DNA from: Lentisphaerae bacterium RIFOXYA12_64_32
Lineage (GTDB): Bacteria; Verrucomicrobiota; Lentisphaeria; Oligosphaerales; YB12-FULL-65-16
Assembly: GCA_001803235.1 (NCBI GenBank)
Contig: MHBL01000433.1
Coordinates: forward strand, 28,594 to 92,593
Reading direction: 5' to 3'
DNA: 64,000 nucleotides
Both the position numbers and the translations under genes were made by a program. The notes beneath the pieces are model-generated. The model was not told where the DNA came from. It searched no databases and saw nothing but the letters and a program-made list of their open reading frames with translations. Shown piece after piece: positions 3,079-63,678 of this stretch. Each line of letters begins with the position of its first letter. Within the stretch, counting starts at the first letter, position 1.

Positions 3079-3085
3079 GCCAGAC

Positions 3086-3117
3086 CTCACCTTATGTTGC
3101 GCGCAACATAAGGTGAG
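3086..3117. repeat. Perfect 32-bp palindrome
   Basis: CTCACCTTATGTTGCG/CGCAACATAAGGTGAG, 8 bp after the GH42 stop codon. Confidence 0.9.
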
Positions 3118-3198
3118 TTCTGGGCCGCATCGCTCACACCGGGCCGCATTCGGTCTGCCCCGCGGAACCCGTTCCCGATGACCTTGGGGGACACCTGT

Positions 3199-8575: not shown

Positions 8576-9286
8576 GTGAAGAAGACAGTCCTTACTCTCG
8601 TCGTGTTGGCGGTCGTGGCGGTCGGTGCGGGCTGCAGGACGTGCAAGAGCATTGACCCCACGGGCATACGGGGAACGCTGCCGCCAGCCTTGGGGGCGGC
8701 GTCGGCGGTTGGCGGCGAGGCGAGCGACAGGCAACCCGTCCAGCCCGACAGGATGCTCATCTGGAAAGCGTCGCTCGGCATCGAGGTCTGGAGCGTGGAG
8801 ACGGCCGTTGCTGACGCGGTCGCCATGGCGGAACGTCAGGACGGCTATGCCGAGCGCAAGTCGGATTCGGGCGCCGGGTACGCGAGCCTGACGATACGCA
8901 TCCCCGCCAAGGTGTTCAAGGACGCCGTCAGCGAGTTCGAGACACTCGGGACGGTCACGCGCCGGGATGTCGAGGGCCAGGACGTGACCGAGGAGTACAT
9001 CGATGCCGATGCCCGGCTGAAGAACAAGATCGTGCTGCGGGACCGGCTCAAACAGCTTCTCGACAAGGCCACGGACGTCAAGGACATTCTGGCGATCGAG
9101 ACGGAACTGAACCGGGTGCAGGGGGACATCGACTCGCTGGAGGGCCGGATCAAGTCCCTGAAGGGGCAAGTGGACTACGCCACGGTGCAACTGGACCTGC
9201 GCCGCAAGCCGATTCTCGGACCGCTCGGTTACCTGTGCAAAGGGCTCTGGTGCGGGATCGAGAAGCTGTTCGTCTTGCGCGACTGA
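8576..9286 (+). CDS. DUF4349-type putative lipoprotein
   Basis: GTG start with GGAGGAGG RBS; MKKTVLTLVVLAVVAVGAGC lipobox; ...DVTEEYIDADARLKNKIVLRDRLKQLLDKATDVKDILAIETELNRVQGDIDSLEGRIKSLKGQVDYATVQLDL typical of DUF4349. Confidence 0.75.
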   Translation: MKKTVLTLVVLAVVAVGAGCRTCKSIDPTGIRGTLPPALGAASAVGGEASDRQPVQPDRMLIWKASLGIEVWSVETAVADAVAMAERQDGYAERKSDSGAGYASLTIRIPAKVFKDAVSEFETLGTVTRRDVEGQDVTEEYIDADARLKNKIVLRDRLKQLLDKATDVKDILAIETELNRVQGDIDSLEGRIKSLKGQVDYATVQLDLRRKPILGPLGYLCKGLWCGIEKLFVLRD

Positions 9287-9409
9287 ACCACCCCGCCTGT
9301 CCGCAACGCCGACTCCAGAACCGGTGCAGGGCCAGACCTGCTTCGGTGAGCACGTCTGGACAATCCTCCTCCCCGGTTTGGAGGGGCGCAGCGCGCAGAT
9401 GAACTTGCC

Positions 9410-9618
9410 AAAACAGGTCTGACCCGAATGCCCCCCAACTTAAGCCAAACGACGGAGACGGCGTGAACACGGGACTGTCAACGCCTCGGCAAGGTGGCAC
9501 CCAGGCGGCCTCACCTGGGTGGCTTCCCGGAACATTTCAGATTTCCGCCAGGCCGGGAGACCTGGCGACCACCCTGGCAAGGCAGCCGCTTAAGTTGGGG
9601 GGCATTCGCTCTGACCCT
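9410..9618. repeat. Inverted-repeat element (21-bp perfect arms), left flank of S8/AAA module
   Basis: CGAATGCCCCCCAACTTAAGC (about 9427-9447) and GCTTAAGTTGGGGGGCATTCG (about 9589-9610). Confidence 0.75.
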
Positions 9619-9624
9619 ACGCGC

Positions 9625-12168
9625 TCATAGACCGCTCGGGACCGCGATGGGAACCTGGATCTTGGCTTGGACCTCGGAGTAGAGGTCGACCTTCACCCCC
9701 AGAGCGTGCAGCGAGACGATCAGGCTGTAGCGAATCTTGGCGTTCGACCTGCCCAAGGCAGGGCGGGTCTTCCACCAGCCGGTGGTCGGGAACACGGCAA
9801 TGTGCTTCATGCTCAGGAGCTTCGCCGCCGGGCCTTCCCAGAAGTCAGAGTGCACCGACCCCTTGAAGACCATCGAACCCAACTTCCACTCGTCTATAGA
9901 CCCCTTGACCACCTCACGATGCTCTGCCTTCGCCTCGTCCTGCGCGTGCTGGTTGACCTGAGCCCTCAAGTCCTCAACCGGTTGACCCGGCGAACTGACT
10001 CTGAACCGTAGGCGGCAACCTGGATATCCGTACCTCGAAGCGGTTCGGTTGCCCGGGTTCGGGTCAATGAAGTACGAAAGCGTGACTCGCATTCGGACAT
10101 CCTCACGCCCCGCGATCGTGCTGAGCACATCGTCGGGCCATGGCAACGTATAGACGTGGTACTCGTTGTAGTGCGCAGAGCGGCCGTCTTCGTCAGCGGC
10201 AAACGGCTGTAGTTCGGCTTGGGCAATCATGGTGACACGTTCACGGGCACACTCGACGGCGGCTTTATACCGCGGTATTCCGTACCCTACCGTCTTGAGC
10301 AGCCACTTCCGCCGCTCTTTGCCCGTCAACGCATTGCCATCCGCGTCAAACCTAGGAATGGACTCCTCCATCGCCGGCGTCCACTCGGCGGAATGAACCA
10401 TCAACCCCCGCACTGTCTCCGGCCAAAGGTCCGGGTGCGATGCGAGTAGGTAACCCGCCATCTGCGACGCCAGCGCCGTTGCCGCACTCGTGCCGTCAAA
10501 GAGTTCGAAGAAGGTCTTGGGAAAGTCAGCGCTGGTCGAGAGAGGCAGCACCTCTGGGAAACACTGGACGCTCTGGTTCGGCCCGAGCGCGCCATTCCCG
10601 CCCTCAAGGACGATATCGGGTTTCGCGGGCCACTCGTCCTCCCATGCGAGCGACGTGCGATTGCTGGGTGCCATGCCGTACGCCGACGCGAGCGTACGGT
10701 ATCCCTTGCGGTCCGGCAGCGCCCGCAGTCGATCCATCAGTGTGCAACTGCCAACGCAGAGCGCGTTCCACGCCTGTCCCGGGTTCTGCACCGGCGATTC
10801 GTGATTGGGGGCCGGGTACAGCGACCAGTCCTGTTTCGGGACATTGCCGACGCTGATGCAGAAGAGACGTCTGACCGCTCCGTTGGCGTCGGTCCCAGCG
10901 GCCAGGCGATCAATCTCCGCCGACCATGAACTCGGCCTGCCGACACTCCTGCCGTCCATGGTGCTTGCCATGCACCAGACACGGGTTCGTTGGGCGTCCG
11001 CTATCTCGGCCGTGGCAACGCCCTGGGCCGTGTAGGCTGCTGCTGCCTTCTCGTCCCGGTTCACTTCCGGCGGCGGTGGCACAATCTTCACGCCCTCGAG
11101 AATGTACGGAACTGGGATCTGTTCGTTCTTGGCCAGAACGGTGGTCAGGTTCCCATAGGCCGCCATCCCCGCCATGGGGGTACCATGGCCCTGGTCGTCC
11201 CCGGTGTTCCATGTCGCCTTGATCGTGTGGTTGTCTGCGGCGGCGAGAACCGGAGAGAGTAAGGGGTGCCCACGGTTGACCCCGGTGTCCAGAACACAGA
11301 CCGCAAGCTCGCCCGTCCCGAGCGGGCGCAGACGTCGCAGCGCATCCTCCTGCCACTTGGCCTGTTCCTCGGGCGTGAGATCCACGAAGAAGTCGGCGTA
11401 GTCTCCGACTCGCCGGATCTCTGCCAGGCAGTTCATCAGGGCAAAGGACTGTCCGAACTGGCCAAAGCGCCCGCGCACATGGAGAATGGTGTGCTCGGGA
11501 AGCTTCTCGACCGCTTGGCCTACTTCAAACTTGCACCGCACCGCCTCGCCGCCAAACTGGCGCAGGATCCCCTGGCGGTCCTCCTCGCTGTCGCCCCGGC
11601 GCAACCACACCTCGTACCAACCCTCATCCTCAGGCTGGGGACATGGGCTTACGTCCGTCCACAACTCGTCCAGAACGGCCGCGCGAAGCCGGCTGATGCT
11701 GTCCACAAGCTCCCGGCGTTTGGGTTCGGTGGATTGCGCGCTTTTCTGCTTGGTCAGGTACTGCTCGAAGATCCGCACAAACTCATCCAGCGCGCCGTCA
11801 CGGATGAACCACCGTTGAAGTTCGACCGTCTTCCCTGACACGTCCGCCGCGACAGAATGATTGAGCAGCACGAACTTCGGGACCACGTGGTCCGCCCACG
11901 CGTCCGTTTGCAGCGGAATGCCTGGCTGCCCCTCAATGGTGACGATGATCCCCTTGGAGCGGATCTCCGCCTCCCGGTCAGCCCAACTCGGCACGCGGGT
12001 CCGGTACTCGTTCCGGATCAGCTCCGCTTCACGTCGGAGAGCCGCGCCATGCTGCCGCCGGTCTTGAGGGGGGATGACGACCGCCTCGATGCGCCTTCTT
12101 CTGGGCTGGAACTCACCGCGCTCATGCCAGCGGTCCCCCAGGCGCAGCAGCGGGTATTGGTTCGGCAT
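9625..12168 (-). CDS. Subtilisin-like S8 family serine protease with large N-terminal extension
   Basis: Asp motif LAVCVLDTGVNRGHPLL, His motif DDQGHGTPMAGMAA, Ser motif FDGTSAATALASQMAGYLLASHPDL. Confidence 0.9.
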   Translation of the reverse strand: MPNQYPLLRLGDRWHERGEFQPRRRRIEAVVIPPQDRRQHGAALRREAELIRNEYRTRVPSWADREAEIRSKGIIVTIEGQPGIPLQTDAWADHVVPKFVLLNHSVAADVSGKTVELQRWFIRDGALDEFVRIFEQYLTKQKSAQSTEPKRRELVDSISRLRAAVLDELWTDVSPCPQPEDEGWYEVWLRRGDSEEDRQGILRQFGGEAVRCKFEVGQAVEKLPEHTILHVRGRFGQFGQSFALMNCLAEIRRVGDYADFFVDLTPEEQAKWQEDALRRLRPLGTGELAVCVLDTGVNRGHPLLSPVLAAADNHTIKATWNTGDDQGHGTPMAGMAAYGNLTTVLAKNEQIPVPYILEGVKIVPPPPEVNRDEKAAAAYTAQGVATAEIADAQRTRVWCMASTMDGRSVGRPSSWSAEIDRLAAGTDANGAVRRLFCISVGNVPKQDWSLYPAPNHESPVQNPGQAWNALCVGSCTLMDRLRALPDRKGYRTLASAYGMAPSNRTSLAWEDEWPAKPDIVLEGGNGALGPNQSVQCFPEVLPLSTSADFPKTFFELFDGTSAATALASQMAGYLLASHPDLWPETVRGLMVHSAEWTPAMEESIPRFDADGNALTGKERRKWLLKTVGYGIPRYKAAVECARERVTMIAQAELQPFAADEDGRSAHYNEYHVYTLPWPDDVLSTIAGREDVRMRVTLSYFIDPNPGNRTASRYGYPGCRLRFRVSSPGQPVEDLRAQVNQHAQDEAKAEHREVVKGSIDEWKLGSMVFKGSVHSDFWEGPAAKLLSMKHIAVFPTTGWWKTRPALGRSNAKIRYSLIVSLHALGVKVDLYSEVQAKIQVPIAVPSGL

Positions 12169-12174
12169 ACGGCG

Positions 12175-13167
12175 TTAGGCCTTTGTCGGTCGACTCAGAC
12201 GTCGTCGGTCGGCAAGGGCGCTCAGGAGAAGGGGCGTGCTCACGCAAGGCAGGCCTTCGATGATCCGTTCCTTGATCGCTTCGCTGGCCACACGTTCCGC
12301 CTCGGCAAAGGTCATTCCCTGCATGGCCCCCAGCACCTTTGACCAGTTGATGTCAGAGTCCTTCTCCTGCAGGAGACGGCGCTTCATCAGAAGCTCAACC
12401 TCCTTGCGGGACGGCAGTCCGTACTCGATGATGTCATCGAAGCGCCGGAACAGCGCCACGTCCAGTGCGTCCGGGTGATTCGACGCCGCAATCACAATGC
12501 TGTTCCCGCGCATGCTGTCGATGAAGACGAGGAAACTGTTCAGCACCCGCCGCATCTCGGCCACGTCGTGCTGTGAGCCGCGCGCCAAACCGAGCGAATC
12601 GAACTCGTCGAACAGAAACACGGCGTGCTGGCGCTCGATGGTCTCAAACACGAGCCGGAGTTTCGTCGCCGTCTCGCCCAGGTACTTGGTGAACAACGCG
12701 TCCAGACGCACCACGTACAGCGGCAACGCAAGGTCATGCGCCAGGGCATGCGCGGTCATCGTCTTCCCGCACCCGGACGGGCCCAACAGCAGCAGGCGAT
12801 GGCGGGGCGTGAGGTTGTACTCGCACAACTGGTTCGCGTGCTGCTGCTCCTTGACGATCCGCTCGAGCCGGCGCCGAAGCGCGGCCGACAGCACCATCTG
12901 CTTCAGCCCGAAGGCCGGTTCCACGGCATCCATCAACCCGGCAAGCTCATTGGCGGCAAATGGACCGTCCCCCAGGCTGGCCCGCATACGGTTGGCCTGC
13001 TGCGCTTTGTTCCCCTTCTCCAGCAGCCGCTGAATGGTGGCCGCAGCCTCGTCATGCCCCATGCGCGCCTCGTTCGCGGCAAGTTGCAGCACGGCCGTGC
13101 GGAATCGCTCGTCGTCACCTTCGAAGTGACTTCGCAACATTTCGACAATCTGATTGATGGCAGCCAT
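12175..13167 (-). CDS. AAA+ ATPase (COG0464/SpoVK-like), partner of S8 protease
   Basis: Walker A LLLGPSGCGKTMTAHALA, Walker B AVFLFDEFDSLG, sensor NHPDALDVALFRRFDDIIEY; 6 bp upstream of protease ORF. Confidence 0.9.
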   Translation of the reverse strand: MAAINQIVEMLRSHFEGDDERFRTAVLQLAANEARMGHDEAAATIQRLLEKGNKAQQANRMRASLGDGPFAANELAGLMDAVEPAFGLKQMVLSAALRRRLERIVKEQQHANQLCEYNLTPRHRLLLLGPSGCGKTMTAHALAHDLALPLYVVRLDALFTKYLGETATKLRLVFETIERQHAVFLFDEFDSLGLARGSQHDVAEMRRVLNSFLVFIDSMRGNSIVIAASNHPDALDVALFRRFDDIIEYGLPSRKEVELLMKRRLLQEKDSDINWSKVLGAMQGMTFAEAERVASEAIKERIIEGLPCVSTPLLLSALADRRRLSRPTKA

Positions 13168-13454
13168 CGTATGAACCCCAATCACTTGCACCGCAACATC
13201 GCACCTCTATCCGTACTATACTGCCCGCGCGACGCGACCCCAACGCCGGGACGTGGGACGGATGCCGCGCTTGGTCAAGACGCCCGCGGACATCCCCCGT
13301 CACGCCGATACCGCCGACCGCAACACAGGCAGAAGGGGCTGGCGTGACTGGCTCGACTTGCCCAAGAACCGCAACAGATCAGACCTGGGGGGGCGGGAAG
13401 CAAGGTCGGACAACTTTCGAGCCCGTGTGGCTGCTCCCTGAGCGCAAATGAGCT

Positions 13455-13678
13455 AGCCAAGACAGGTTTGACATCAATGACACGCAACATAAGAAATGCT
13501 GAACGCTGAATGCTGAGTACTGAATGTCGGATGTTGAGTGCCCAACCGAAACCCGGTCTCGTCGAACCACGCGATGGAGCGTACCCAACATCCCGGCCCC
13601 CAGCTCAGCATTCAGCGTTCAGCATTCAGCACTTCCGGGCTCGGCCCCGCCTTAAATTGGGGGGCATTCGGTTTGACA
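13455..13678. repeat. Diverged copy of the 9410-9618 inverted-repeat element, right flank of S8/AAA module
   Basis: GCCAAGACAGGTTTGACATCAATG at left, CTTAAATTGGGGGGCATTCGGTTTGAC at right; matches the element at 9.4-9.6 kb. Contains nested (TGCTGAATGCTGAACGCTGAA)-type inverted repeat. Confidence 0.65.
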
Positions 13679-13706
13679 TCACCCCCACATCACGCCCCCC
13701 CACACA

Positions 13707-14005
13707 CAGGTCAGAAGAAACGCGTTGTCCATGGAACCGAACGCCATCAAGGTGTGTCTCACTCGGTAAGACGGGGACTGGTAGGACAGTCCGAGGATAG
13801 GAAGCTGGCAGTCGAGGTAGGAAGGCAGAGTCAGAGATCGAGACAGCTCGAGAGTTGCTCGGAGTGGGTCGAGAAGGCTGCCAGGCACGAGGAAGCGAAG
13901 GTCGCATCAACAGGCAGAAGGCAGAGCGGGTTGAGAGAGCCTGGTGATGGCAAGAGGGTCCGATCCAGTCCCCGCCTCGCTCTTTTCTTTGCTTCCGGCG
14001 CGACA
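13707..14005 (+). ncRNA. Candidate structured RNA / repeat element, copy A
   Basis: Homologous to 20332-20630; conserved CAGGTCrGAAGAAACGCGTTGTCCATGGAACCGAACGCCATCAmGGTGTGTCTCACTCrGTA followed by stems with compensatory differences between copies. Confidence 0.45.
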
Positions 14006-14161
14006 GCGTTGACCTCCGTTGTGCAACACCACGCATTGACGTTGTCTTGACGTCGATCCGACGCGCCTCACCCAAAGCGGTACTTCGTCTGCCCGCAGCG
14101 CTTGCGCCTGTGGCGCCAGCGACAGGCGCTGCAGGCGGGTACACGCAATCCAAAGCGGAAG

Positions 14162-14395
14162 CCTCGGGGACAGGCACATAGTGGCGGGGCTGGCCAAAAT
14201 GCGCCAGTGCTCCGCCCGCGGCATGGGGCGCACGAACGTGTGGCACGCCGCGAACGGCCGCGACGCGGACCTGCAACACAGATAGCCCGTCCCGTCCCCA
14301 GGGTCTTCACGGTCCGGCTGACTCTGCTCTGGCCTTGTTGTGCCGAGGCGTGGCGGGTATTGTCCAAAGGCGACACAGATAGCCTGTCCCCAAGG
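14162..14395. mobile_element. ~235-bp TIR element, copy 1 (MITE-like)
   Basis: CCTCGGGGACAGGCACATAG ... CACAGATAGCCTGTCCCCAAGG ends; near-identical to 19726-19963 and 20802-21035. Confidence 0.7.
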
Positions 14396-14396
14396 A

Positions 14397-17300
14397 CTAC
14401 CCATTCGCCAGCAGTCCGGTCGGTCGCGGCCGTCCCAGGCGCTCCGCGATCTCCATGACGACCTCGCGGACCTCGGGGAACAGGCGTTCAAGGATGGTCA
14501 CATCGCCCGTGCGGAAGTACTCAACCGCCTGAATAAAGGGGTCTACAAGGCGGAGCACGTCTGCGTTCCGCACCGTGGCTCTCACCATGTCCACGGCGTC
14601 CGCGAACCGCTCCGGTACGAGCTGCAGCACGTGACGCAGGAAGGTGCCCATTTGTGCCCCGTACCAGTCCAGTTCGTGCCACGCTTCCATTGCCAAGACG
14701 GCGCGGAGAAGGTTCAGACCGACGTCTGCCTCGCCTTTTCGGAGTGCACCTGACGCGACTCCCAGGATGTACTCGCACACCCCCGCGAGGTCTCTCGGCG
14801 GGATCGGCACAGCCGCCAACGCTACAGGCAAGGCCTCCATGCGTTTGCCGTGGCGGCCTAGGCAGGCCAGCGCGATCTCCCGATCCGCGGCGGGGCTCCA
14901 GTACTGCGGTTCAACCGTCAGGGCGGCGTCGAGATCCTCGAGGGCCTCGGCATACCGTCCGGCCAGAAGCAGAATGTCGCCCCGGAAGCGGTGTACCTCA
15001 CGAGGGCTGGCCCCAATCGTCTCGGCTTGATCGACCGCGGTCAGCGCGTCGTCCGCGCGTTGCAGACGGACCAGACACCACGCTTTCCTCAGAAGCAACT
15101 CCGGCGTGTTCGCCGCCTGTGGCGCCGCTTCCAGACGCGCAAGTGCATCTTCGTGTCGTCCCAACTTCCAGAGGGACAGGACGACGGTCAGGATCATCTC
15201 GGGGTGGTCGGGTACCAGATCGCAGGCCTGTTCGGCCGCTGCGAGCGCCTCGGGGTGGCGCCCCAGGCTGCGAAGCGCGACGGACTGCAACCGCCACAAC
15301 TCCGCAGTGGGCTCGCCGACGTCGGCGGCCTTGCGGAAGGCCTCAAGCGCTTGCTTGTAGTCACCGGTCAAACCTGCCGCCCGGCCCAGTACTCTCCAGG
15401 CGGTGGCGCTTTGCGGGTCCATTTCCACGGCGTGTTGTGCGCACTCCGCAGCTTCCGGGAAGTGCTCAAGTTCGAACAGCGCCATCGATTGCGCCAGCCA
15501 CAGCTCCGCTGTGGGTCCGCCGACTTCGGCTGCCTTGCGGAGCGCGGCAAGCGCTTGATCGTGGTCACCGGTCAAGCCAACCACCCGGCCCAACTCCTCC
15601 CAGACCCCGGCGTCTTGCGGGGCCACCTCGGTAGCGCGTCGCGCGCACTCTGCGGCCTCAGGGTAGCGCTTGAGTGCCCGCAGTGTCATCGACTGCAGCC
15701 GCCACAGTTCTGCCGTGGGGGCAGCGAACTGAACAGCCTTACGGGCGGCATCCAGCGCCGGCTCGTCTTGGTCAGCGAAGTGCAGTGTCAGGACCAGTCT
15801 CTCCCACGCCGTGGCGTCTTGCGGGGCCATCTCGGTGGCGTGTCGTGCGCACTCCGCAGCCTCCGAGAAGCGCTTGAGCGCAAGCAGCGCCACGGATTGC
15901 CCTTTCCACAGTTCCACGGTGGGCCCACCGAGTTCGGCCGCCTTGCGGAAGGCCCCGAGTGCCTGCTCGTAGTCACCGCTCCCGAATGCCGTCCGACCCA
16001 ACTCCTCCCAGGTTGTGGGATTCTGCGGTGCCATCTCGGCGGCATGCCGTGCGCATTCCGTGGCTTCAGGGAGACGCTTGAGTGCAAGCAGTACCCTCGA
16101 TTGCCCTCGCCAGAGATCCGCGGTGGAGCCGCCGAGTTCAGCCGCCTTGTGGTAGGCCTCAAGCGCCGGCTCGTTCTGATCAGCCAAGCACAACGCCCAA
16201 CCCAGTCGCTCCCATGCGCCGGCGTTGTCGGGTTCCAACTCGACGGCCTTGCGCGCACACTCCGCCGCCTCCGGGAAGCGTTTCAGTGCCTGCAGTACCA
16301 TGGATTGCCGCCGCCATCGCTCTGCGGTGGGACCGCCAATGTCGGCCGCCTTGCAGAAAGCCTCAAGCGCAGGCTCGTTCTGGTCAGTGAAGTGCAATGC
16401 CCAACCCAGTCCCTCCCATCCGCCCACGTTTCCGGGCTCCAACTCGATGACCCTGCGCGCGCATTCCGCGGCCTCCGGGAAGCGCTTGAGTGCAAGCAGC
16501 GCCCTCGATTGCCGTTCCCAGAGATCCATCGTGGGGCCGCCGATCTCGGCCGCCTTGCGGTAGGCGTCCAGTGCCTGCTCGTGGTTACCTTGGCGAACGA
16601 CGGCGATACCCAGGAGTCTCCACCCGTCCGCGTCGGACGGTTTCTGTGCGGTCAGCGCACGTGCGTGCTTCTCCGCTTCTGCCGCGCCACCCAACTTCAG
16701 CAGTTCGGAGACGTCGTCCGCGGCATCCTTGTAGCGCCCGGACTGAAGGTGGAGTTGAGCCTGAACGTCATAGGCTGACCTGGTGCCTTCGGCATCCCCC
16801 TGGTCCAGGGTCTCGCGTAGGAAGGAAGCGGCTTCCTGCTCTGCCCGCCGCCCCATCCCGACGGTGACGAGCGCGTCTACGCGAGAACGGAAGATGTCGC
16901 ATCGCAAGTCGGCAGGCGCTGCGGCCTGAACGTAGTACATCTCCTCAACGTGATGCAAGATTCCCTGCTTGTCAGCGCCGGGGAGGCGGCGCAAGCCCCG
17001 TGTGTGTTCCTCATACAGGGAGCGTATGTCCTCCGGAGTGTAGTACAACTTGAGGAAGTCCACGAGGAAACGGAATCGCTGCTGTCCCGCGACACTTGCG
17101 GTTTGGCGCCAGATCCGGAAAAGACGTTCCGAGACGTCGTATCGCGTGGCGCGCTGGCGCTGGAGCTTGATTGGCCGGACATAATGCTGCTGTTTCAGGC
17201 GCTGGAGCTGGGCGTTGACCTTGGCGACCGGCAGGCGGGTGGCGAGGGCGATCTCGGAGGGCGTGGCCGGTCCCGGCATCTCACACAATGTGTCCAGGAC

Positions 17301-18245
17301 CTTTCGGGGTTGTTCCGCCAAGTCGTCGAAACGGCGGACGAAATACTCTCGCAGGTCCTCCATGAGTTGAGCAAGAGCAACCTCGATTTCGAGGAACGTG
17401 TTGCGGGTGGCGACCTGCGCAACGAACAGAATCAACCGGGGATTGCCCCCCGTCAGCGCGAGGATGGCCGGAAGTTTGCGGCTCAGCTCCTCCTGGCGCG
17501 CGTTGAACTCATCGATCCTGCCCTCTTCGGCAAACCATTTCCCGACCAACTCGAGTACTTCAGGCTCTCGCAAGTCCTCGATGGGGCGAACATCGAAGAA
17601 ATCATGGAATGCTGCCTGTTGTCCGAGAATCTGCTTGAAGACAGTTGGCGCGCTGGCAATGATCAGCACGAAACCTTGACCACTCAAGAAAGCGCGGAAG
17701 CGTTCGTGGTCACTGTGCCGCCACCCCGAGAGAACCTTCTGCACATTGTCGACAAGCAGCAGAATGCGTTTGTGGCGTTCGTCGTGGTAACGTGTCAGGC
17801 GCTCGAAACAGCAGCCGCATACGGCCGCATCGTCCTGCCGAGGCAGATCAGGCGGCAGTTGCCAGAGAGACTCAAGGACATTCTCCTGGCGCAGTTTGGC
17901 GATGACGTTGAGCAGGAAGTTGGCGAGTGAGTTCTGTCCCGCATACTCCTCCTCGGTGAAGAGCACGGGCGTCCACGCCGACAAGTCGGTGGAGACGGCA
18001 AACGGCGGGGCGAGGCGTCCGGCGACATAGTGGCGGACCAGGCTGAGGAGGTGGGTCTTGCCTATTCCGCGTGGGCCGACCAGAACCGTGTGATTCGCCA
18101 CACAACCGGCTGGAGAAGACAACAAACCGAGCAGGTCGGAGAGCACACTGTCCCGGCCAACCAGGGTCCGCCCGAGCTGTTCCGGAACGGCCTGCCAGGG
18201 TGCGAAAGGATGCCGGCGTACTCCCGACGTGTCAAACGGACGCAT
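14397..18245 (-). CDS. STAND/AAA-type ATPase with winged-helix-like region and C-terminal TPR array
   Basis: Walker A VLVGPRGIGKTHLLSLVRHY, Walker B RILLLVDNVQ; C-terminal tandem TPRs (e.g. ALLALKRFPEAAECARRVIELEPGNVGGWEGLGWALHFTDQNEPALEAF). Start ATG 18245 overlaps upstream gene end. Confidence 0.85.
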   Translation of the reverse strand: MRPFDTSGVRRHPFAPWQAVPEQLGRTLVGRDSVLSDLLGLLSSPAGCVANHTVLVGPRGIGKTHLLSLVRHYVAGRLAPPFAVSTDLSAWTPVLFTEEEYAGQNSLANFLLNVIAKLRQENVLESLWQLPPDLPRQDDAAVCGCCFERLTRYHDERHKRILLLVDNVQKVLSGWRHSDHERFRAFLSGQGFVLIIASAPTVFKQILGQQAAFHDFFDVRPIEDLREPEVLELVGKWFAEEGRIDEFNARQEELSRKLPAILALTGGNPRLILFVAQVATRNTFLEIEVALAQLMEDLREYFVRRFDDLAEQPRKVLDTLCEMPGPATPSEIALATRLPVAKVNAQLQRLKQQHYVRPIKLQRQRATRYDVSERLFRIWRQTASVAGQQRFRFLVDFLKLYYTPEDIRSLYEEHTRGLRRLPGADKQGILHHVEEMYYVQAAAPADLRCDIFRSRVDALVTVGMGRRAEQEAASFLRETLDQGDAEGTRSAYDVQAQLHLQSGRYKDAADDVSELLKLGGAAEAEKHARALTAQKPSDADGWRLLGIAVVRQGNHEQALDAYRKAAEIGGPTMDLWERQSRALLALKRFPEAAECARRVIELEPGNVGGWEGLGWALHFTDQNEPALEAFCKAADIGGPTAERWRRQSMVLQALKRFPEAAECARKAVELEPDNAGAWERLGWALCLADQNEPALEAYHKAAELGGSTADLWRGQSRVLLALKRLPEATECARHAAEMAPQNPTTWEELGRTAFGSGDYEQALGAFRKAAELGGPTVELWKGQSVALLALKRFSEAAECARHATEMAPQDATAWERLVLTLHFADQDEPALDAARKAVQFAAPTAELWRLQSMTLRALKRYPEAAECARRATEVAPQDAGVWEELGRVVGLTGDHDQALAALRKAAEVGGPTAELWLAQSMALFELEHFPEAAECAQHAVEMDPQSATAWRVLGRAAGLTGDYKQALEAFRKAADVGEPTAELWRLQSVALRSLGRHPEALAAAEQACDLVPDHPEMILTVVLSLWKLGRHEDALARLEAAPQAANTPELLLRKAWCLVRLQRADDALTAVDQAETIGASPREVHRFRGDILLLAGRYAEALEDLDAALTVEPQYWSPAADREIALACLGRHGKRMEALPVALAAVPIPPRDLAGVCEYILGVASGALRKGEADVGLNLLRAVLAMEAWHELDWYGAQMGTFLRHVLQLVPERFADAVDMVRATVRNADVLRLVDPFIQAVEYFRTGDVTILERLFPEVREVVMEIAERLGRPRPTGLLANG
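15105..16535 (-). repeat. Tandem 68-aa (204-bp) double-TPR repeats inside the STAND gene
   Basis: About six well-conserved units of the form W..QS..L.ALKRFPEAAECAR.A.E..P...AWE.LG........AL.A.RKAAE.GGPTAEL. Confidence 0.8.
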
Positions 18246-19422
18246 GGTAGATCCTCCACCAGTCCCGGAGCCACTTGCTCTTGAACACGACCTCGCGTCG
18301 CTCCGGCAGCACCTCCTCGACGTAGAAATCGTCATGCAGCCAGCTCAACAGCAGATCGAATGCGCCCCCGTTCGCGGTGCCCAGTTCCTCATGGTACAGA
18401 GCCTGCAGCCTGGCCCGGGCGACCGGGCCTCCCGCAATCGCCAGCTCGCGCAGGAGCCGTTTGGCCGCGCGGGCCTCGTCGGGTGTGTAATAGCGATCCA
18501 GGCGCTCGTAGTAGTCCTCGAACCGGTTCCGGTACTGCGGTCCCAATGCGCGTTCCTCATAGCACATGCGGACGAGTTCGGGCGTGAGTTCCGCGCCGCG
18601 GTCCCGGACCTCACTGGCCACTGCGGACGCGAGGATCTGCATGAAGATGGGGATGAAGGTCTCTACCTGCTCCAGGAAGGTCTCCGTGATCAGGACATTG
18701 GCCTCGATCCCCCGGGAGGCGAGCAACTGCCGCACGAAGGTGGCGGCGGCCTCACGAGTGAAAGGACCCACGGGAATCTGGGCCAGGTCATTGATCTTGT
18801 GCGTGGCGCCGATATGCGCGGCGACGCGCGCCATGCCGACTGAACCGGCGACGAGTTGCCGCAAGCCCGGTCGGATCTCCGGCTCATGGCGCAGATGGCG
18901 AAGCCAGTCAAGTAGTGACAGGGCCTTCTCCTGTCCTTCCTCTCCGGAGTCGGCCATTCGGTGCAGCAGGAGTGGGAGTTCATCGAGAATAACGAGCAGT
19001 TTCGGCCCGGATGCTACGGCGGCGCGAACGGCGCTTTCACCTTGTTCACGCCATCCTTGCGCGAGTTGTTCCCGCAACGTTAACTTGATCTGCCAGATCT
19101 CAAGCTCCTCGATGTTCCGACGAGCCCCCGTCAGAATCCCCTGGGTAAACTTACGGACGTCGCCGCTGACCTTGCCAACCCTGACAACCAGATCGGCGAC
19201 GAGATCCTCGGGCGATTCGTAGTTCTGGCCATCCAGGTACACCGGCCGGAACCCGTTGGCGGGCCGCTCCATGAGTCGAAGCATGATGCTGCTCTTCCCC
19301 ACTCGCCTGGGTGCAGCGAGCAGAACGCTATCGCCCTCAAGCGTCTGCCACAGGTTGGCGATGAGTTGCTCGCGGTCGAAGAAATCCTCTCCGGTGACAG
19401 GGTTACCGGTGACAATATGCAT
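18232..19422 (-). CDS. ATP-binding protein (COG1672-like AAA ATPase), operon partner of STAND/TPR protein
   Basis: N-terminal NPVTGEDFFDREQLIANLWQ, Walker A LLAAPRRVGKSSIMLRL, Walker B LLVILDELPLLLHRM. Confidence 0.85.
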   Translation of the reverse strand: MHIVTGNPVTGEDFFDREQLIANLWQTLEGDSVLLAAPRRVGKSSIMLRLMERPANGFRPVYLDGQNYESPEDLVADLVVRVGKVSGDVRKFTQGILTGARRNIEELEIWQIKLTLREQLAQGWREQGESAVRAAVASGPKLLVILDELPLLLHRMADSGEEGQEKALSLLDWLRHLRHEPEIRPGLRQLVAGSVGMARVAAHIGATHKINDLAQIPVGPFTREAAATFVRQLLASRGIEANVLITETFLEQVETFIPIFMQILASAVASEVRDRGAELTPELVRMCYEERALGPQYRNRFEDYYERLDRYYTPDEARAAKRLLRELAIAGGPVARARLQALYHEELGTANGGAFDLLLSWLHDDFYVEEVLPERREVVFKSKWLRDWWRIYHASV

Positions 19423-19725
19423 GGCCCATCTCCTGTATCAAGATTGCTATATAACACAACCGTTACATAACATAAAATGCTTGGCGATGCTGTCAAGCGC
19501 AGCCCGGCAAGATTCCCTTGGACAGACAGAACGGAATGCCTTGTGTCCACAACCCCTGCCTCCCATGAAACTGAAGGTTCCCAGAGCCCGTGAGGACGCG
19601 GGCGCTGGAAACGTCGTTGTCAATTTCACCTCGGTGTGGCCGGGTGATGCACCGCCCGGAAAACTCGGGGACAAGAGCCACAGGGGAACCTCGGGAGAGC
19701 CTCGGGGACAGAGCCTCGGGGCGAG

Positions 19726-19963
19726 CCTCGGGGACAGGCACATAGTGGCGGGGCTGGCCAAAATGCGCCAGTGCTCCGCCTGCGGCATGGGGCGCACGAA
19801 CGTGTGGCACGCCGCGAACGGCCGCGACGCGGACCTGCAACACAGATAGCCCGTCCCGTCCCCAAGGTCCACATTCACGGTCCGGTTGACTCTGCTCTGG
19901 CCTTGTTGTGCCGAGGCGTGGCGGGTATTGTCCAAAGGCGACACAGATAGCCTGTCCCCAAGG
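19726..19963. mobile_element. ~235-bp TIR element, copy 2
   Basis: Near-identical to 14162-14395, same TIR-like ends. Confidence 0.7.
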
Positions 19964-20236
19964 TCCCTGCCCGCCATGCTCTACCACGGCGTGAATACCG
20001 AAGCCGCCGTGCTCATGCGCATGAATGCCGTGCCCCGGAGTATTGCCCCCGCGCTCGGGCAGAGGTTCGCGGTTGCGACCAAGGGTCGCCCTGACGTCCA
20101 CAGCACCCGTGCCGCCCGCGAGTACCTTCGGCGCCTCTCTCCCGACGACTGGCAACGCGCCGCCCCGCGAGGCGCCAAACTCACCGGCCCCGACTACCAG
20201 AATGTCTGGCGACTGCTGGCCGGCGAACGCCTCTGA
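19964..20236 (+). pseudogene. C-terminal fragment of a larger protein (possibly a DEAD/DEAH-box helicase-type protein) abutting the TIR element
   Basis: MLYHGVNTEAAVLMRMNAVPRSIAPALGQRFAVATKGRPDVHSTRAAREYLRRLSPDDWQRAAPRGAKLTGPDYQNVWRLLAGERL* begins directly at the element boundary; helicase assignment is from memory and weak. Confidence 0.35.
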
Positions 20237-20331
20237 CCTACCCCGCCGCCACCCCGGCCCGCAAGATGCTCTTCACCGAACGGATAGGTATCAGTCAACC
20301 CGAAACGGTCAATGCCAAGGCCCTTGGCCTG

Positions 20332-20630
20332 CAGGTCGGAAGAAACGCGTTGTCCATGGAACCGAACGCCATCACGGTGTGTCTCACTCAGTACGACGGG
20401 GGCTGGTAGAACAGCCCGAGACTCCCGCGCTGGCAGTCGGAGTGAAGGAGAGAAACAGAGGGAGTTGAGAGTGAAGGCAACAAGCTCGCGGTGTCTCGCG
20501 AGGACTGCCAGGCAAGAGGAAGCGAGGGTCACCACCAACAGGCACAGAGGGTCGGTAGAGCCTGCGAGTGGGAAGGGCTTAAAGCCCGGTCCCCGTCGCG
20601 CCTCTTTTTCTCCCCGTCGCGCCGCGGATC
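20332..20630 (+). ncRNA. Candidate structured RNA / repeat element, copy B
   Basis: Homologous to 13707-14005 with preserved pairings (GGGCT/AGCCC, CTGGCAGTC/GACTGCCAG, CTCGCG/CGCGAG). Confidence 0.45.
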
Positions 20631-20801
20631 GAGTGCGCGTTCCCCGTTTCTTTCGCCTGCCCGTGGAGCGCCGTGCAGCTCTCTTGAGTCCCTCGCACTG
20701 CGATCCGCCTGTTCCTTGTCGTCCCGGCAAGAAGCCGGCGGAAGGCGGGTGTTGAGCGTTGCCTGTTGGACCAAAGCCTCGGCCAGAAGCCTCGGGGGGA
20801 G

Positions 20802-21035
20802 CCTCGGGGACAGGCACACAGTGGCGGGGCTGGCCAAAATGCGCCAGTGCTCCGCCTGCGGCATGGGGCGCACGAACGTGTGGCACGCCGCGAACGGCCG
20901 CGATGCGGACCTGCAACACAGATGGCCCGTCCCGTCCCCAGGGTCGTCACGGTCCGGCTGACTCTGCTCTGGCCCTGTTGTGCCGAGGCGTGGCGGGTAT
21001 TGTCCACAGGCGACACAGATAGCCCGTCCCCAAGG
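20802..21035. mobile_element. ~235-bp TIR element, copy 3
   Basis: Near-identical to 14162-14395. Confidence 0.7.
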
Positions 21036-21136
21036 ACTCCCCGATCTATGCGCACATCGCAATCTCATGATACTGAAGGCGGGACCGCGTTCCTGGCGCG
21101 GGTGTGCCGGTCGCGTCTGCGCTGGCAGGAACAGGG

Positions 21137-23884
21137 TCACGGCTGCTTGTCGGGCTTGAAGCAGAGGTTGTCGAGGTAGAATACGGCCGGGTCGTTGCCG
21201 TAGCTGACGAAACCCAACCATTGCACACTGGTGAACTCCGGGTCGCAGGGGATGTCGCTGCGCTCGAAGAGCGTCTCGTCCCCCACCGTGATCGTCACGG
21301 CCCACTTGCCGTCGCACAGCTTGCCGAGGCCGTCGGCCATGCGGAAGTGCACCCACTTGCCGTCCGGGATGATGCACTCCGTGGGGATCTGGTCGAGCAG
21401 GAGCTTGCCATCGGCCTGGATCCGGATGCTGGGTCCGTTCTGGCGCATGCCGACGCAGTCGCGCCACTCGACCCACAGCATGGCGCCGGGTTCGCGGTAC
21501 AGGTCGAAGTCCAGGCGCATGTTGATGCTGTCGCTCAGGTTGGGACGGTAGAAAACGTGTGGCAGGTGATACTGCGCCAGGCCGGCGGCGTCGACGAACT
21601 TCAGGCTGTGCTTGCCGGACGCCGCCTTCTCATCGGTGACGACGACGAAGCCTTTCTCCGCTTCGACGATCTCGACCATGGCCGGTTTCTCACCCGGCGC
21701 CTCGAGCTCGAACCCCTCCTCGTAGAACTTGGCGAACAGCGCGCCGAGGTCGGTTTCGGTCGGGAGCAGTGGCGCGATCGGGCATGACGCGGGCAACTGC
21801 CGCCACTCCGCCGGACCGACGAGGCCGACGTCGGTCATGTCGAGCGCCGTGAAGCCGAGCGCGAACGCCGGGGATTCGGGCTTGAGCCGGAAGTCGCGAT
21901 TCTTCGCGTCCACGAACAGGGGGTCGGCAATGCGCGACCGCTCGTCCATGCGCGGCGTGTACCAGATGTCCTTGATCCCCTCCAGTTTCTGCCACTCCTC
22001 GAAGCTGTACTTCAGGAACTTGATCGGCTTGCCGTCCTCGTGCCAGTACAGGTTGTGCTTGATGATCTTGTTGTAGCTCTGCCACTGCTGTTCGGGCCGG
22101 AACGGCGTTCCGTCGCCGGCCATGTAGACGATGTTGTAGGCAAAGATGTTCGTGCGTTCCGAATCGATGCCGAGGCCGAACCCGCAGTAGGCGCAGAGGT
22201 TGTTCAGAACCGTCAGGCAGGCGGTGCCGTGCTGGCACCGGACCCCGCCGGCGCCGGCGTCGTGGACCAGGTTGTTCTCGCACAGGACGCCGGAACTGCC
22301 GCCGTCCAGGTAGATGCCGTGCCCGACGGCGTCCTCGGCCCGACCGACGTCGTGGATGTGGTTGTTGCGGATGACCGAACCCGGGGTGAGGCCGAGGCTG
22401 TAGATGCCGCCGCCGTCGTCCAGAACGCGCATGACATGGTGCACGTGGTTGCGTTCGACGATGTTGTCGCGCGTGCCGGACTGCGTGATGTCCCAGGTCC
22501 AGCCGAGCGAAATGCCGGTGTAGCGGAAGTCGCAGACCTCGTTGTGCGAAATCGTGTTGCGGTGCGCGTAGCCGACGCAGATGCCCACCGCGCCCGCGTG
22601 AATGTGCCCGCCGTCGTGGATGAAGTTGTTGTCGATGAGGTTGTCGTGGCTGAGCAGGCGCGGGATCGGCCGCGTGTGCACCCCGATACGCACACCGCCG
22701 CCACCAAGATCATATAAGTGGTTTCTCACCATACGGTTACCACTACATCCGTCTCGGAACCAGATGGCGTAGTGGCCGATGTGCGCCACCTCGCAACCTT
22801 CGATCGCGATGTCGCGCGCGCCGTCGAACTGCAAGGCGGCATCGAGTGTCGACTCCGCCTGCGGATCGCCGTGACCCTCGGGTGGCAGATGCCAGGCGGC
22901 GTACTGGAACGAGAGGCCCTCGAAACGGATGTGCTCGACGAATCGGTCCTGCGCCGGGTCGCCCCGACCCACGACCAGGTTCTGCACGACCGGCGCCACG
23001 ACCGTCAGTTCGTCGAGTTTCTCATCCGCAAACGGGATGACGGTCAGCACGCCTGTGACGCGGTCGAGCTGCCACTCGCCCGGTGCGTCGAGAGCGCCCG
23101 GATGGTTCTCGACCAGGTAGCACTGTCCGGACGAGCGCGGCATGGGCCACACCGCGGGGCCGCCGAGGAACGCCACCTGCGTGCTTTCGTCGACCGACTT
23201 CAGAGGGTACAGGCCCGAATTCCAACTGAAGTAGAGCTTCAGGTTCACGTCCGGCAGGTTGTCCCAGGCCTTGAGGTCGCCGGGGAAGAACCCGAACGCC
23301 GTCTTGGACTTGCCCGCCCACTCGCCGGTCTTGGCCACGTCGCCCTGGAGCACGGCCTTGCGGATGAAGAACTGGCCGCTGTTCGGCGAACGCGCCAGAA
23401 TGTAGCGCCGCCCGTTGGCGAAGAGTTGACGGAACACCCAGGCGTGGTCTCTGGCCGCATCCAGGGTAACGGAGTATGAGCCGTTGGCGTTGCGTTGGAA
23501 CCCGCGCACTTCGCGGCCCCCCGAGATCACCGGGTGTTCACCCTCGTACGCGGCGTAGACAATGGGGCCGGCGCTCGTCCCCGAGTCCTCCGGCAGCAGC
23601 TCGAACGACGCCTCGAGCCGATAGACGCCGTCGCGCAACAGGACCCGTGCGCCACCGTCCGGAACACGGCCGGCGCTCTTCATCTCGCGCAGAGCATTTC
23701 GCGCCCGGTCGAGCGTAGCGAACGGGCCGTCCGTCTTTTCCGCGTTCGGTGCCGCGAGCGTGCCGGACCACGCGTCCTGACCCTGGGGCGACACATACAG
23801 CACGGCCGTGTCGGCCGCCAGGATGCTCAAGCCGACCAGGCACCCGCTCACCAGCAACGCGTTGCGGAGGAAAGAATGCGCCAT
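21137..23884 (-). CDS. Secreted right-handed parallel beta-helix protein (GH141/pectate-lyase-like)
   Basis: Signal peptide MAHSFLRNALLVSGCLVGLSILAADTA; YVSPQGQDAWSGTLAAPNAEKTDGPFATLDRARNALR; multiple NxIxxNxI beta-helix coils. RBS GGAGGAGA before ATG 23884. Confidence 0.8.
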   Translation of the reverse strand: MAHSFLRNALLVSGCLVGLSILAADTAVLYVSPQGQDAWSGTLAAPNAEKTDGPFATLDRARNALREMKSAGRVPDGGARVLLRDGVYRLEASFELLPEDSGTSAGPIVYAAYEGEHPVISGGREVRGFQRNANGSYSVTLDAARDHAWVFRQLFANGRRYILARSPNSGQFFIRKAVLQGDVAKTGEWAGKSKTAFGFFPGDLKAWDNLPDVNLKLYFSWNSGLYPLKSVDESTQVAFLGGPAVWPMPRSSGQCYLVENHPGALDAPGEWQLDRVTGVLTVIPFADEKLDELTVVAPVVQNLVVGRGDPAQDRFVEHIRFEGLSFQYAAWHLPPEGHGDPQAESTLDAALQFDGARDIAIEGCEVAHIGHYAIWFRDGCSGNRMVRNHLYDLGGGGVRIGVHTRPIPRLLSHDNLIDNNFIHDGGHIHAGAVGICVGYAHRNTISHNEVCDFRYTGISLGWTWDITQSGTRDNIVERNHVHHVMRVLDDGGGIYSLGLTPGSVIRNNHIHDVGRAEDAVGHGIYLDGGSSGVLCENNLVHDAGAGGVRCQHGTACLTVLNNLCAYCGFGLGIDSERTNIFAYNIVYMAGDGTPFRPEQQWQSYNKIIKHNLYWHEDGKPIKFLKYSFEEWQKLEGIKDIWYTPRMDERSRIADPLFVDAKNRDFRLKPESPAFALGFTALDMTDVGLVGPAEWRQLPASCPIAPLLPTETDLGALFAKFYEEGFELEAPGEKPAMVEIVEAEKGFVVVTDEKAASGKHSLKFVDAAGLAQYHLPHVFYRPNLSDSINMRLDFDLYREPGAMLWVEWRDCVGMRQNGPSIRIQADGKLLLDQIPTECIIPDGKWVHFRMADGLGKLCDGKWAVTITVGDETLFERSDIPCDPEFTSVQWLGFVSYGNDPAVFYLDNLCFKPDKQP

Positions 23885-26620: not shown

Positions 26621-26694
26621 CAGGCCGCCCCTACCAGGTGTGCGCGGAGGTGTGGCCTTCCGAGACGCGGCGCCAGATCTTGAAACAGCCCTGG
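26621..26694. repeat. Dispersed repeat; copy at 43287-43361
   Basis: CAGGCCGCCCCTACCAGGTGTGCGCGGAGGTGTGGCCTTCCGAGACGCGGCGCCAGATCTTGAAACAGCCCTGGG. Confidence 0.8.
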
Positions 26695-26700
26695 GTGGCC

Positions 26701-26857
26701 GTAATGCGTCAGTGGCGGGTGGAGATAAGGTCGAAGGTTGACCGGGGCTGGCGTCTAAAGTGGTCGGAGCGGCTCGCTCCGACACCCGCGGGACCGAGCC
26801 GGTCCCGCCACTTTTGGCGAGCCCCCCCCAGCCCAGCACCCGCCACTGACGCATTAC
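26701..26857. mobile_element. 157-bp MITE-like element with perfect 21-bp terminal inverted repeats
   Basis: GTAATGCGTCAGTGGCGGGTG (26701-26721) / CACCCGCCACTGACGCATTAC (26837-26857); same 21-mer also at 828-848. Confidence 0.75.
26758..26819. repeat. REP-like palindromic repeat copy, nested in MITE 26701-26857
   Basis: AAAGTGGTCGGAGCGGCTCGCTCCGACACCCGCGGGACCGAGCCGGTCCCGCCACTTTTGGCG. Confidence 0.8.
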
Positions 26858-28885: not shown

Positions 28886-29040
28886 TGAGCGCGGTGGCTC
28901 GGCGCGCCTGCCTGTGCGCCGCACGCAGACAGGTCCCGCGCCGAAGCGGGGTGCGTCGGCCGGTCCCCGGCCGAGGGCCTCGGGCCGGGACGGCCCCGAG
29001 CACCCTGCCGCGGTCCCGGAGGTCCCGCGCCACTGCCCGT
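28886..29040. repeat. Dispersed repeat; diverged inverted copy at 54777-54904
   Basis: GGTGGCTCGGCGCG...GGTCCCGCGCCGAAGCGGGGTGCGTCGGCCGGTCCCCGGCCGAGG...CCCTGCCGCGGTCCCGGAGGTCCCGCGCCACTG. Confidence 0.65.
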
Positions 29041-29258
29041 TACGGCACACAACCGCGAACGGGCGTATCCTGGCGCCCATTGCACCGCCTTCTGTCTCTG
29101 TGGATTTACCCGCACAGGTTGAAAAAAACGCCGGGCTGAGCGTCTACAGTATGACGGCGAAACGCACCCGGCAGACGGCTGCAGGCGGAGCGCTCCGGGG
29201 GAGTCCCGTGGGATACTGGCCTAGGGTCGAAAGTGCAGCGGACGAGGATGGCCACACC

Positions 29259-43066: not shown

Positions 43067-43456
43067 GTGTTCAACCCTCGGTTCGGTTTCCCCCGTTTCC
43101 GGCTCGCTCCCTTCGGACGCGCGCCGTTGACGCGTGCGTCGGCAGGACACGCGGCAATCTTAGCCCGTCGAACGCAGGACTGCAAGGAGACCGTGGACCC
43201 GGGCAGGGCTGTTTCAAGATTCGTGACCGTCGCGTGCGGCGAGTACCCCCGGCGTGTCCCCACGCCGGGGGGGGGCGGCCTGAGGACAGGCCGCCCCTAC
43301 TTGGTGTGCGCGGAGGCGTGGCCTTCCGAGACGCGGCGCCGGATCTTGAAACAGCCCTGGGACCCGGGCGCCTTTCACGCATTGCCTTTCCCGGCACGTA
43401 CGGCTACGTTGGTCGCTGCTGGTGACGACCGGTGATGACACGGAGAACGAACCGAC

Positions 43457-44355: not shown

Positions 44356-44412
44356 CCCTCTCTTCCCTTTCCCCCGTCCGCCGCCGGCGGACGGGGGAAA
44401 GGGAAGAGAGGG
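44356..44412. repeat. Perfect 27-bp inverted repeat, 3-nt loop
   Basis: CCCTCTCTTCCCTTTCCCCCGTCCGCC-GCC-GGCGGACGGGGGAAAGGGAAGAGAGGG. Confidence 0.9.
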
Positions 44413-48202: not shown

Positions 48203-48216
48203 GAAACGTCCATCGC

Positions 48217-48279
48217 GGGGTCAGGCCTTGTCATTTGCAATTGGCCTGGACCCAATTGCAAATGACAAGGCCTGACCCC
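48217..48279. repeat. Perfect 28-bp inverted repeat, 7-nt loop
   Basis: GGGGTCAGGCCTTGTCATTTGCAATTGG-cctggac-CCAATTGCAAATGACAAGGCCTGACCCC. Confidence 0.92.
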
Positions 48280-48288
48280 GACGGCCGT

Positions 48289-51814: not shown

Positions 51815-51876
51815 AAAGTGGCCGGAGCGGCTCGCTCCGGCACCCGCGGGAGCGAGCCGCTCCCGCCACTTTGGCC
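51815..51876. repeat. REP-like palindromic repeat (family also at 26758-26819 and 63953-64000)
   Basis: AAAGTGGCCGGAGCGGCTCGCTCCGGCACCCGCGGGAGCGAGCCGCTCCCGCCACTTTGGCC. Confidence 0.8.
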
Positions 51877-54691: not shown

Positions 54692-54752
54692 TCCCTGGAG
54701 CGCCGGCGTCTCGCCGGCTGCCTTTCCGTGGCGTGGCGGTACCCCGCGAGCC
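54692..54752. repeat. Dispersed repeat, inverted copy at 34457-34519
   Basis: TCCCTGGAGCGCCGGCGTCTCGCCGGCTGCCTTTCCGTGGCGTGGCGGTACCCCGCGAGCC. Confidence 0.8.
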
Positions 54753-54939
54753 AGGATGCACCCGGTCGCGGTTGGGCGGGCCGTGGCGCGGGACCTCTGG
54801 GACCGCAGCAGGGTGTGTCGGTTCGTCCCGAACCGGGGTCCTCGGCCGGGGACCGGCCGGCGAACCCTGCTTCGGCGCGGGACACGCCGAGCCACTGCGG
54901 CCGTACTTCCGCGAGGCTGGACCTATCCCGCACGGGGCG

Positions 54940-61080: not shown

Positions 61081-63678
<2,598 letters not shown>

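Follow-up and report, generated by a model that had tools for sequence, protein, structure and literature searches.

A distant IetAS pair beside a mobile two-ATPase STAND unit in a Lentisphaerae genome, and the case for a role in conflict

Introduction

When two ATPase modules lie side by side among mobile repeats, are they parts of one defence island, or have they arrived independently and for different reasons? The question is raised by a locus of Lentisphaerae bacterium RIFOXYA12_64_32 (contig MHBL01000433.1, positions 28,594 to 92,593), a stretch of 64,000 nucleotides called here the window, in which an initial annotation, made from the sequence alone, had described a protease and AAA pair and a two-gene STAND-type unit, each bracketed by its own family of repeats. 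All four genes (ietS, ietA, and those called here A and B) are real and complete, the coordinates first assigned to them hold, and the two modules, 1.2 kb apart on the same strand, are indeed unrelated: one half is a known system, IetAS, and the other a conserved, mobile two-ATPase unit, A-B, which is named in no library searched. The reading to which we incline is that these are two independent, horizontally acquired modules, now side by side, and that the role of A-B most likely lies in conflict with phages or mobile elements.

The source is a draft genome of 10.6 Mb in 503 contigs (93% complete, 5% contaminated), whose relatives L109, L122 and L131 are Victivallales/Lentisphaeria. A family of 184-bp repeat elements on this contig recurs on many others of the bin, evidence that the contig belongs to the organism.

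The IetAS pair

Gene ietS (9625-12168, minus strand) encodes an S8 subtilisin-like protease of 847 aa that matches PADLOC IetS (2.6e-29, residues 289-838) and Pfam Peptidase_S8 (1.2e-50), and a motif check finds its catalytic D294, H328 and S561 in place. Upstream on the same strand, after a gap of 6 nt, ietA (12175-13191) encodes an AAA+ ATPase of 338 aa, matching PADLOC IetA (2.2e-75), NCBIfam IteA (1.2e-61) and Pfam AAA, in which Walker A (GPSGCGKT) and Walker B (FLFDEFD) are both intact; its frame opens with GTG at 13191, the ATG at 13167 being the start first proposed. The protease and AAA pair was therefore correctly seen, and PADLOC identifies it as IetAS, a system whose anti-phage activity is established. 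As both proteins fall far under the NCBIfam equivalog cutoffs (IteS 37 of 900 bits, IteA 209 of 510 bits), it is a distant homologue and not the same equivalog. Judged by these matches and motifs, 9625-13191 is an intact IetAS pair, a distant member of this toxin-antitoxin and anti-phage system. Within the order, IetA is matched in 3 of 48 genomes, the source genome counted, and in one of these relatives (L153) ietA and ietS are again adjacent.

The likeness to the described members of IetAS (also IteAS: ietAS of pTiC58, sgiAT of SGI1, TA132/3 of Mycoplasma mycoides) lies in the two proteins, their order and their intact catalytic motifs, and is limited to this half of the locus. In the relatives of pTiC58, SGI1 and the mycoplasmas the protease is the toxin and the ATPase the antitoxin (PMC5006074, PMC8562856), and the mycoplasma relatives have flanking direct repeats (PMC8562856), just as repeats border the pair here. 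If the published mechanism applies, IetA would restrain the toxic protease IetS, which would be freed by a disturbance that an invader causes or by loss of the genes.

Two ATPases with unequal catalytic motifs

Gene A (18232-19422, minus strand) encodes a 396-aa ATPase of the STAND/ORC-like (ATPase_2) type, recognized by alignment and by a fold model (predicted local distance difference test, pLDDT, 92.5) whose best match in the PDB is the archaeal ATPase 2qen (template modelling score 0.59), followed by archaeal ORC2. It carries a Walker A of APRRVGKS, a Walker B of ILDE and a C-terminal winged helix that ends in WW. This A has no match in Pfam, PADLOC, NCBIfam or PHROG, and Pfam ATPase_2 matches 27 of 58 members of its family. 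Its end overlaps the start of gene B by 14 nt in the window, and by the 4 nt of an ATGA in three relatives.

Gene B (14397-18245, minus strand; fold model pLDDT 89.8) encodes a STAND/NLR-like ATPase module followed by a winged helix, a TPR array and a C-terminal cap, LFPEVREVVMEI. Its start is better placed at 18245 (MRPFDTS), which lines up with the starts of relatives, than at 18335. Library matches consist of TPR models (TPR_16 in six stretches) and a weak AAA_16, and nothing else; the modelled ATPase module resembles ORC1, Apaf-1, plant NLRs and CED-4 in the PDB. All the parts by which STAND proteins are defined are present in order: a P-loop ATPase of STAND/ORC fold, then the winged helix, then C-terminal superstructure-forming repeats. 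The caps in which most complete B proteins finish are related, to judge by eye: LFPEVREVVMEI is that of the window, IAPEIRTTAEIFYDG and IPPEVLPTVEEI are further examples, and L064 and L067 are exceptions. Against the PADLOC models of Avs and other STAND systems, neither A nor B of the window matches any family at E <= 0.001; other B members match mostly generic winged-helix and ATPase models there, and PADLOC, NCBIfam and Pfam contain no model for the unit as a whole (14397-19422).

The most unusual feature of the pair is the way in which the catalytic motifs are split between its two members. In all 58 pairs A keeps both the DE of Walker B and a Walker A with RRxGK, the A motif having been in part a search criterion, which the B motif was not. 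In the same 58 pairs B has an intact Walker A (GPRGIGKT in the window) and a Walker B that reads [DE]N (VDN in the window, with Asn167 if counted from 18245), so that asparagine is invariant where the catalytic glutamate is expected, and no acidic residue follows the Mg-binding aspartate, as competence for hydrolysis would demand. The B module would bind ATP but, because of this asparagine, probably hydrolyse it poorly. The earlier description of a two-gene STAND-type unit was correct as far as it went, but the unit is more distinctive, a conserved and co-inherited pair with asymmetric catalytic motifs.

Inheritance and transfer of the pair

A search with A only recovered 69 loci in GTDB genomes, and a search of the phylum found 16, spread over 15 of 388 genomes, a patchy distribution. 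Once duplicates are removed, B lies directly downstream of A on the same strand in 72 of 81 A homologues; of the other nine, six run off their contig, two are true exceptions (L125 and L096), and the last is the leading fragment of a split A gene. The hosts include Lentisphaerota, Verrucomicrobiota, Planctomycetota, Acidobacteriota, Methylomirabilota, Thermodesulfobacteriota, Bacteroidota, Calditrichota, Campylobacterota, Pseudomonadota, Myxococcota, Cyanobacteriota and Gemmatimonadota, single names among them being unsure, since most are metagenome bins.

The trees of A and B (58 rows each) agree closely, with a Mantel r of 0.77, where permutations reach at most 0.11; of 26 strong splits in A, 24 are found again in B, and there are no strong conflicts. 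The same trees place the pair of the window with those of an Acidobacteriota genome (L074; 55% and 59% identity) and of a Methylomirabilota genome (L075), and the members from Lentisphaerota fall in three separate places. At the DNA level, pairwise comparison of eight closer loci (pairs that include Verrucomicrobiota, Acidobacteriota and unclassified bacteria) shows a similarity that starts no more than about 75 bp ahead of A and stops at B, the flanks up to about 10 kb sharing no DNA at the sensitivity used; between L112 (Verrucomicrobiota) and L130 (Acidobacteriota), A is 80% identical. Because the similarity between phyla ends at the two genes, the pair has been transferred as a unit, and on the evidence of these boundaries A-B is a mobile two-gene cassette.

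Neighbour clustering across the 72 loci found no conserved neighbour, the genes common to a few loci belonging to broad families. A third gene conserved in all A-B loci was likewise considered and rejected, the only candidate being a RelA_SpoT gene present in three.

The repeat array of gene B

Within B, at 15179-16582 (minus strand), lie seven tandem units of 204 nt (68 aa, a double TPR), which had been overlooked at first. Six of the seven are 51-69% identical to one another but at most 50% identical to the units of L074, despite ATPase modules that are 59% identical; the window units thus resemble each other more than those of L074, from which it follows that the array has undergone turnover after the two lineages split. 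Such self-similarity is frequent in the family: of 54 complete B tails, 22 contain a stretch of 120 residues with at least 60% identity to the one that lies a single repeat further along, whereas by the same measure the ATPase modules of B never exceed 20%, and 9 of 270 long neighbouring open reading frames reach 40%. Diversifying selection as a cause of this turnover is unsupported, the ratios of nonsynonymous to synonymous substitution (dN/dS) between pairs of window units being 0.21-0.53.

The array looks like the sensor region, and, as both its ends are conserved and its middle is variable, the arrays of the family would form a natural series for finding the target of that sensor. A short form also occurs: in four Bacteroidales loci (L155, L086, L107 and L116) B measures only about 300 aa and has no repeats. 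In the first of these, on the Segatella copri plasmid NZ_CP085933.1, the short B is adjoined by DUF262, WYL, HAD and IS21 genes.

Linked effector genes

In one clade, formed by L122 (Lentisphaeria) and by L080 and L083 (both Thermodesulfobacteriota), a gene with a RelA_SpoT synthetase domain (2e-11 to 2e-8) lies upstream of A and overlaps it, and A itself is extended at its N terminus by a domain of some 120 residues that has no match in Pfam. In this three-gene version the RelA_SpoT gene lies at L122:5999-6811, L080:8889-9641 and L083:985-1722. Searches for the gene found it on no plasmid and in none of the 388 sampled genomes of the window's own phylum at E <= 1e-25, a sample too thin for a judgement, as L122 shows that the group does have it.

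FGE domains are known from described conflict systems. In L062 (604-13969) B is fused to NACHT and FGE-sulfatase domains, with paralogues of this second half on both sides. The parts other than FGE have counterparts in the modular NTPase conflict systems already described (PMC7159879).

The repeats around the two modules

The initial annotation had also described each module as bracketed by its own repeats, and mobile repeats do stand at the borders of both. Downstream of ietS lies a 184-bp element (9425-9608) with perfect 21-bp terminal inverted repeats, which as single-stranded DNA folds 6 standard deviations better than its shuffles. The element on the other side of the IetAS pair (13455-13678) is a degraded relative: all that the two have in common is the right end (27 nt, 89%) and a single arm of the inverted repeat, the interior being a different, 23-bp inverted repeat. 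The family is spread throughout the genome. There are 39 of its terminal-repeat sites in the 10.6 Mb, against none for a reversed control pattern, and at least seven copies elsewhere of at least 140 nt with 73-88% identity. At that density, the chance of a second element within about 4 kb would be some 2% (an estimate made after the fact), and pairs of close neighbours also exist elsewhere (contig C194, 34806 and 36309). The bracketing of IetAS by this family may be due to chance.

Around A-B, a unit of 246 bp occurs in three copies: at 14157-14402, where it overlaps the stop codon of gene B; at 19724-19963, upstream of gene A, 97% identical to the first and missed in the initial annotation; and at 20797-21042, 96% identical to the first. 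Copies 1 and 2 start with GGGGACAGGC and end with GCCTGTCCCC, which form an inverted repeat of 10 bp. Three full copies bracket A-B and there are none elsewhere in the genome. The second composite repeat that had been proposed stands for this unit, at 96%, but not along its whole length: the older stretches 13707-13943 and 20332-20564 are only 76% identical to each other, and the middle does not align.

It could be supposed from these repeats that the two modules are chance neighbours in a repeat-rich genome, and that the repeats at the borders, as ordinary elements, tell us nothing of how either was acquired. The 39 sites of the first family would favour this, the restriction of the 246-bp unit to the locus would not, and the transfer of A-B is in any case shown by the tree and by the DNA boundaries in relatives, independently of any repeat. 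We regard this explanation as possible but doubtful; it is compatible with the explanation of A-B preferred below.

An orphan reading frame of 116 aa (19886-20236) runs out of the second 246-bp copy, and was rejected as a recognizable gene fragment since it has no Pfam match. The repeat units were also considered as RAYT-linked palindromes, and this was rejected, there being no RAYT-like motif next to 13 other copies or fragments. No structured RNA is matched by Rfam in 9000-22000.

A proposed mechanism and its rivals

Taken alone, A-B is best read as a conflict system, a reading that we hold to be rather probable. In such a system A-B would work as a two-gene STAND switch, inherited and transferred as one unit, in which B would be the sensor, its TPR array binding the trigger, and its ATPase module, to judge from the asparagine, would bind ATP and probably hydrolyse it poorly. 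The catalytically complete A, which is co-inherited with B, would assemble with it and hand the signal on. In the subclade described above the output would probably be the RelA/SpoT-type nucleotide synthetase encoded upstream, if the gene has the activity that its domain suggests; at the window, where no effector gene is linked, it would come from the A-B assembly itself or from a protein whose gene lies elsewhere.

Several observations weigh against a conflict role and must be set beside the patchiness and the transfer. A stands without a detectable B in L096:3733-4935 and L125:4091-5311, despite at least 2.3 kb of downstream sequence; several Bacteroidales B genes, as said, are short and lack repeats; the window repeats show no average sign of positive selection; and the pair of the window has no linked effector gene. 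Among 50,697 phage records and IMG/VR there are no relatives of A-B, and among plasmids only two, so that the vehicle of transfer is unseen; carriage of A-B as phage cargo was rejected on its absence from these phage and viral records. Finally, 144 proteins near A-B (<3.5 kb) matched 7 PADLOC families, mostly generic ones, and 144 far from it (>5.5 kb) matched 25, the scan having taken in about half of the near set.

TPR-STAND regulators are common, and A-B could be an ordinary one of the MalT/AfsR kind, its array sensing a metabolite or a stress and the pair controlling physiology in a way unrelated to phages. The winged helices in both proteins, the non-defence neighbours and the lack of a linked effector at the window would agree with this; for a regulator, however, the patchy spread, the bare two-gene transfer between phyla, the want of a conserved target gene alongside, the speed with which the repeats turn over and the linkage to a RelA/SpoT-type gene would all be unusual, and we think it unlikely, if still worth serious consideration. 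Less likely again, and in our judgement improbable, is that A-B forms a selfish pair of the addiction or toxin-antitoxin type, one ATPase restraining the other, as its tight organization with overlaps of 4 nt (ATGA) or 14 nt, its horizontal spread and the precedent of IetAS next door might suggest; yet neither protein has a toxin domain recognizable in Pfam or NCBIfam, the likely toxin, where there is one (RelA_SpoT), is a third gene, and there are hardly any plasmid copies. That IetAS and A-B form one four-gene defence system, as their adjacency on the same strand with 1.2 kb between them might suggest, can hardly be right, since each pair has its own bordering repeats, neighbour clustering of the 72 A-B loci found no IetAS relative in common with the window, in L153 the IetA relative is accompanied by an IetS of its own, on a contig different from any A-B match, and the two are apart in every relative examined.

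The conflict reading of A-B can be carried further, though only tentatively: the pair may be a bacterial equivalent of paired NLRs, a hetero-oligomeric immune switch in which a catalytically silent sensor, B, whose TPR array diversifies rapidly, and an active A together control exchangeable effectors, a RelA/SpoT-type synthetase among them, and which crosses phyla as a bare two-gene cassette. As a whole, this fuller picture seems to us rather doubtful.

Comparison with known systems

B resembles the STAND/NLR repeat proteins (Apaf-1, CED-4, plant NLRs, bacterial Avs and TPR-STAND) in its P-loop ATPase, winged helix and C-terminal repeats, but differs from them in having a second, different ATPase encoded alongside it in almost every case, in the replacement of the Walker B glutamate by an invariant Asn, in the absence of a fused effector domain from nearly all members, and in matching no PADLOC Avs model. 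The fold of A is that of the ATPase_2 or archaeal Walker ATPases (PDB 2qen, 2fna) and of ORC/Cdc6, from which A is set apart by its nearly constant pairing with B and by the conserved winged helix with the WW motif at its end. To the NTP-dependent modular conflict systems (Kaur et al. 2020, PMC7159879) A-B is alike in the NTPase switch, the putative sensor repeats and perhaps exchangeable effectors, for which the RelA/SpoT-type gene of one subclade and the NACHT/FGE fusion of L062 are candidate parallels; however, the two-gene system described there consists of EACC1 and a caspase protein, not of two ATPases, and no EAD or vWA/MoxR component is seen in A-B. The inactive STAND proteins within BREX (2026 BREX paper) have no Walker motifs, whereas B keeps its Walker A.

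A working analogy, with no claim of direct descent, may be drawn with the sensor-helper NLR pairs of plants, in which there are also two STAND proteins with unequal catalytic motifs, one of them with variable repeats. Searches of the literature turned up no description of a two-ATPase STAND pair, and, as their coverage leaves out most subscription papers, this is no proof of absence. If A-B is a conflict system, a widespread two-ATPase switch would have been overlooked by the current defence libraries, which would miss it since the two genes pass for generic "ATP-binding protein" genes and sit outside defence islands; the invariant split of the motifs would then allow the division between sensor and executor in paired NLR-type receptors to be studied in a simple bacterial system.

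Is the locus a defence island?

The initial annotation had proposed a defence island, and this part of it found little support: apart from IetAS there is no clear defence gene nearby, and the neighbours of A-B elsewhere show no enrichment in PADLOC families. Elsewhere in the window the PADLOC matches are to generic relatives alone, and fit a Ser/Thr kinase (3199-6180) and ClpB (61081-63678). The same annotation had named two findings that would speak against it, homologues not enriched near defence genes, which is what is observed, and conservation with synteny in all relatives, which is not seen, both modules being patchy (within the order 3 of 48 genomes have IetA, and within the phylum 15 of 388 have A-B). 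The island reading is thus weak, and the patchiness and the transfer still fit a conflict system.

Other repeats in the window

Repeats of further kinds occur outside the locus. Near-perfect intergenic palindromes (44-67 bp, 86-98% self-complementary) lie at 44356-44412, 48216-48280, 3080-3123 and 51815-51872, the last being seen again at 26756-26814 and near the end of the window. Two dispersed repeats are also present, one of 75 bp (95%) at 26621-26695 and 43287-43361, and one of 142 bp (80%), in inverted orientation, at 28933-29074 and 54750-54883.

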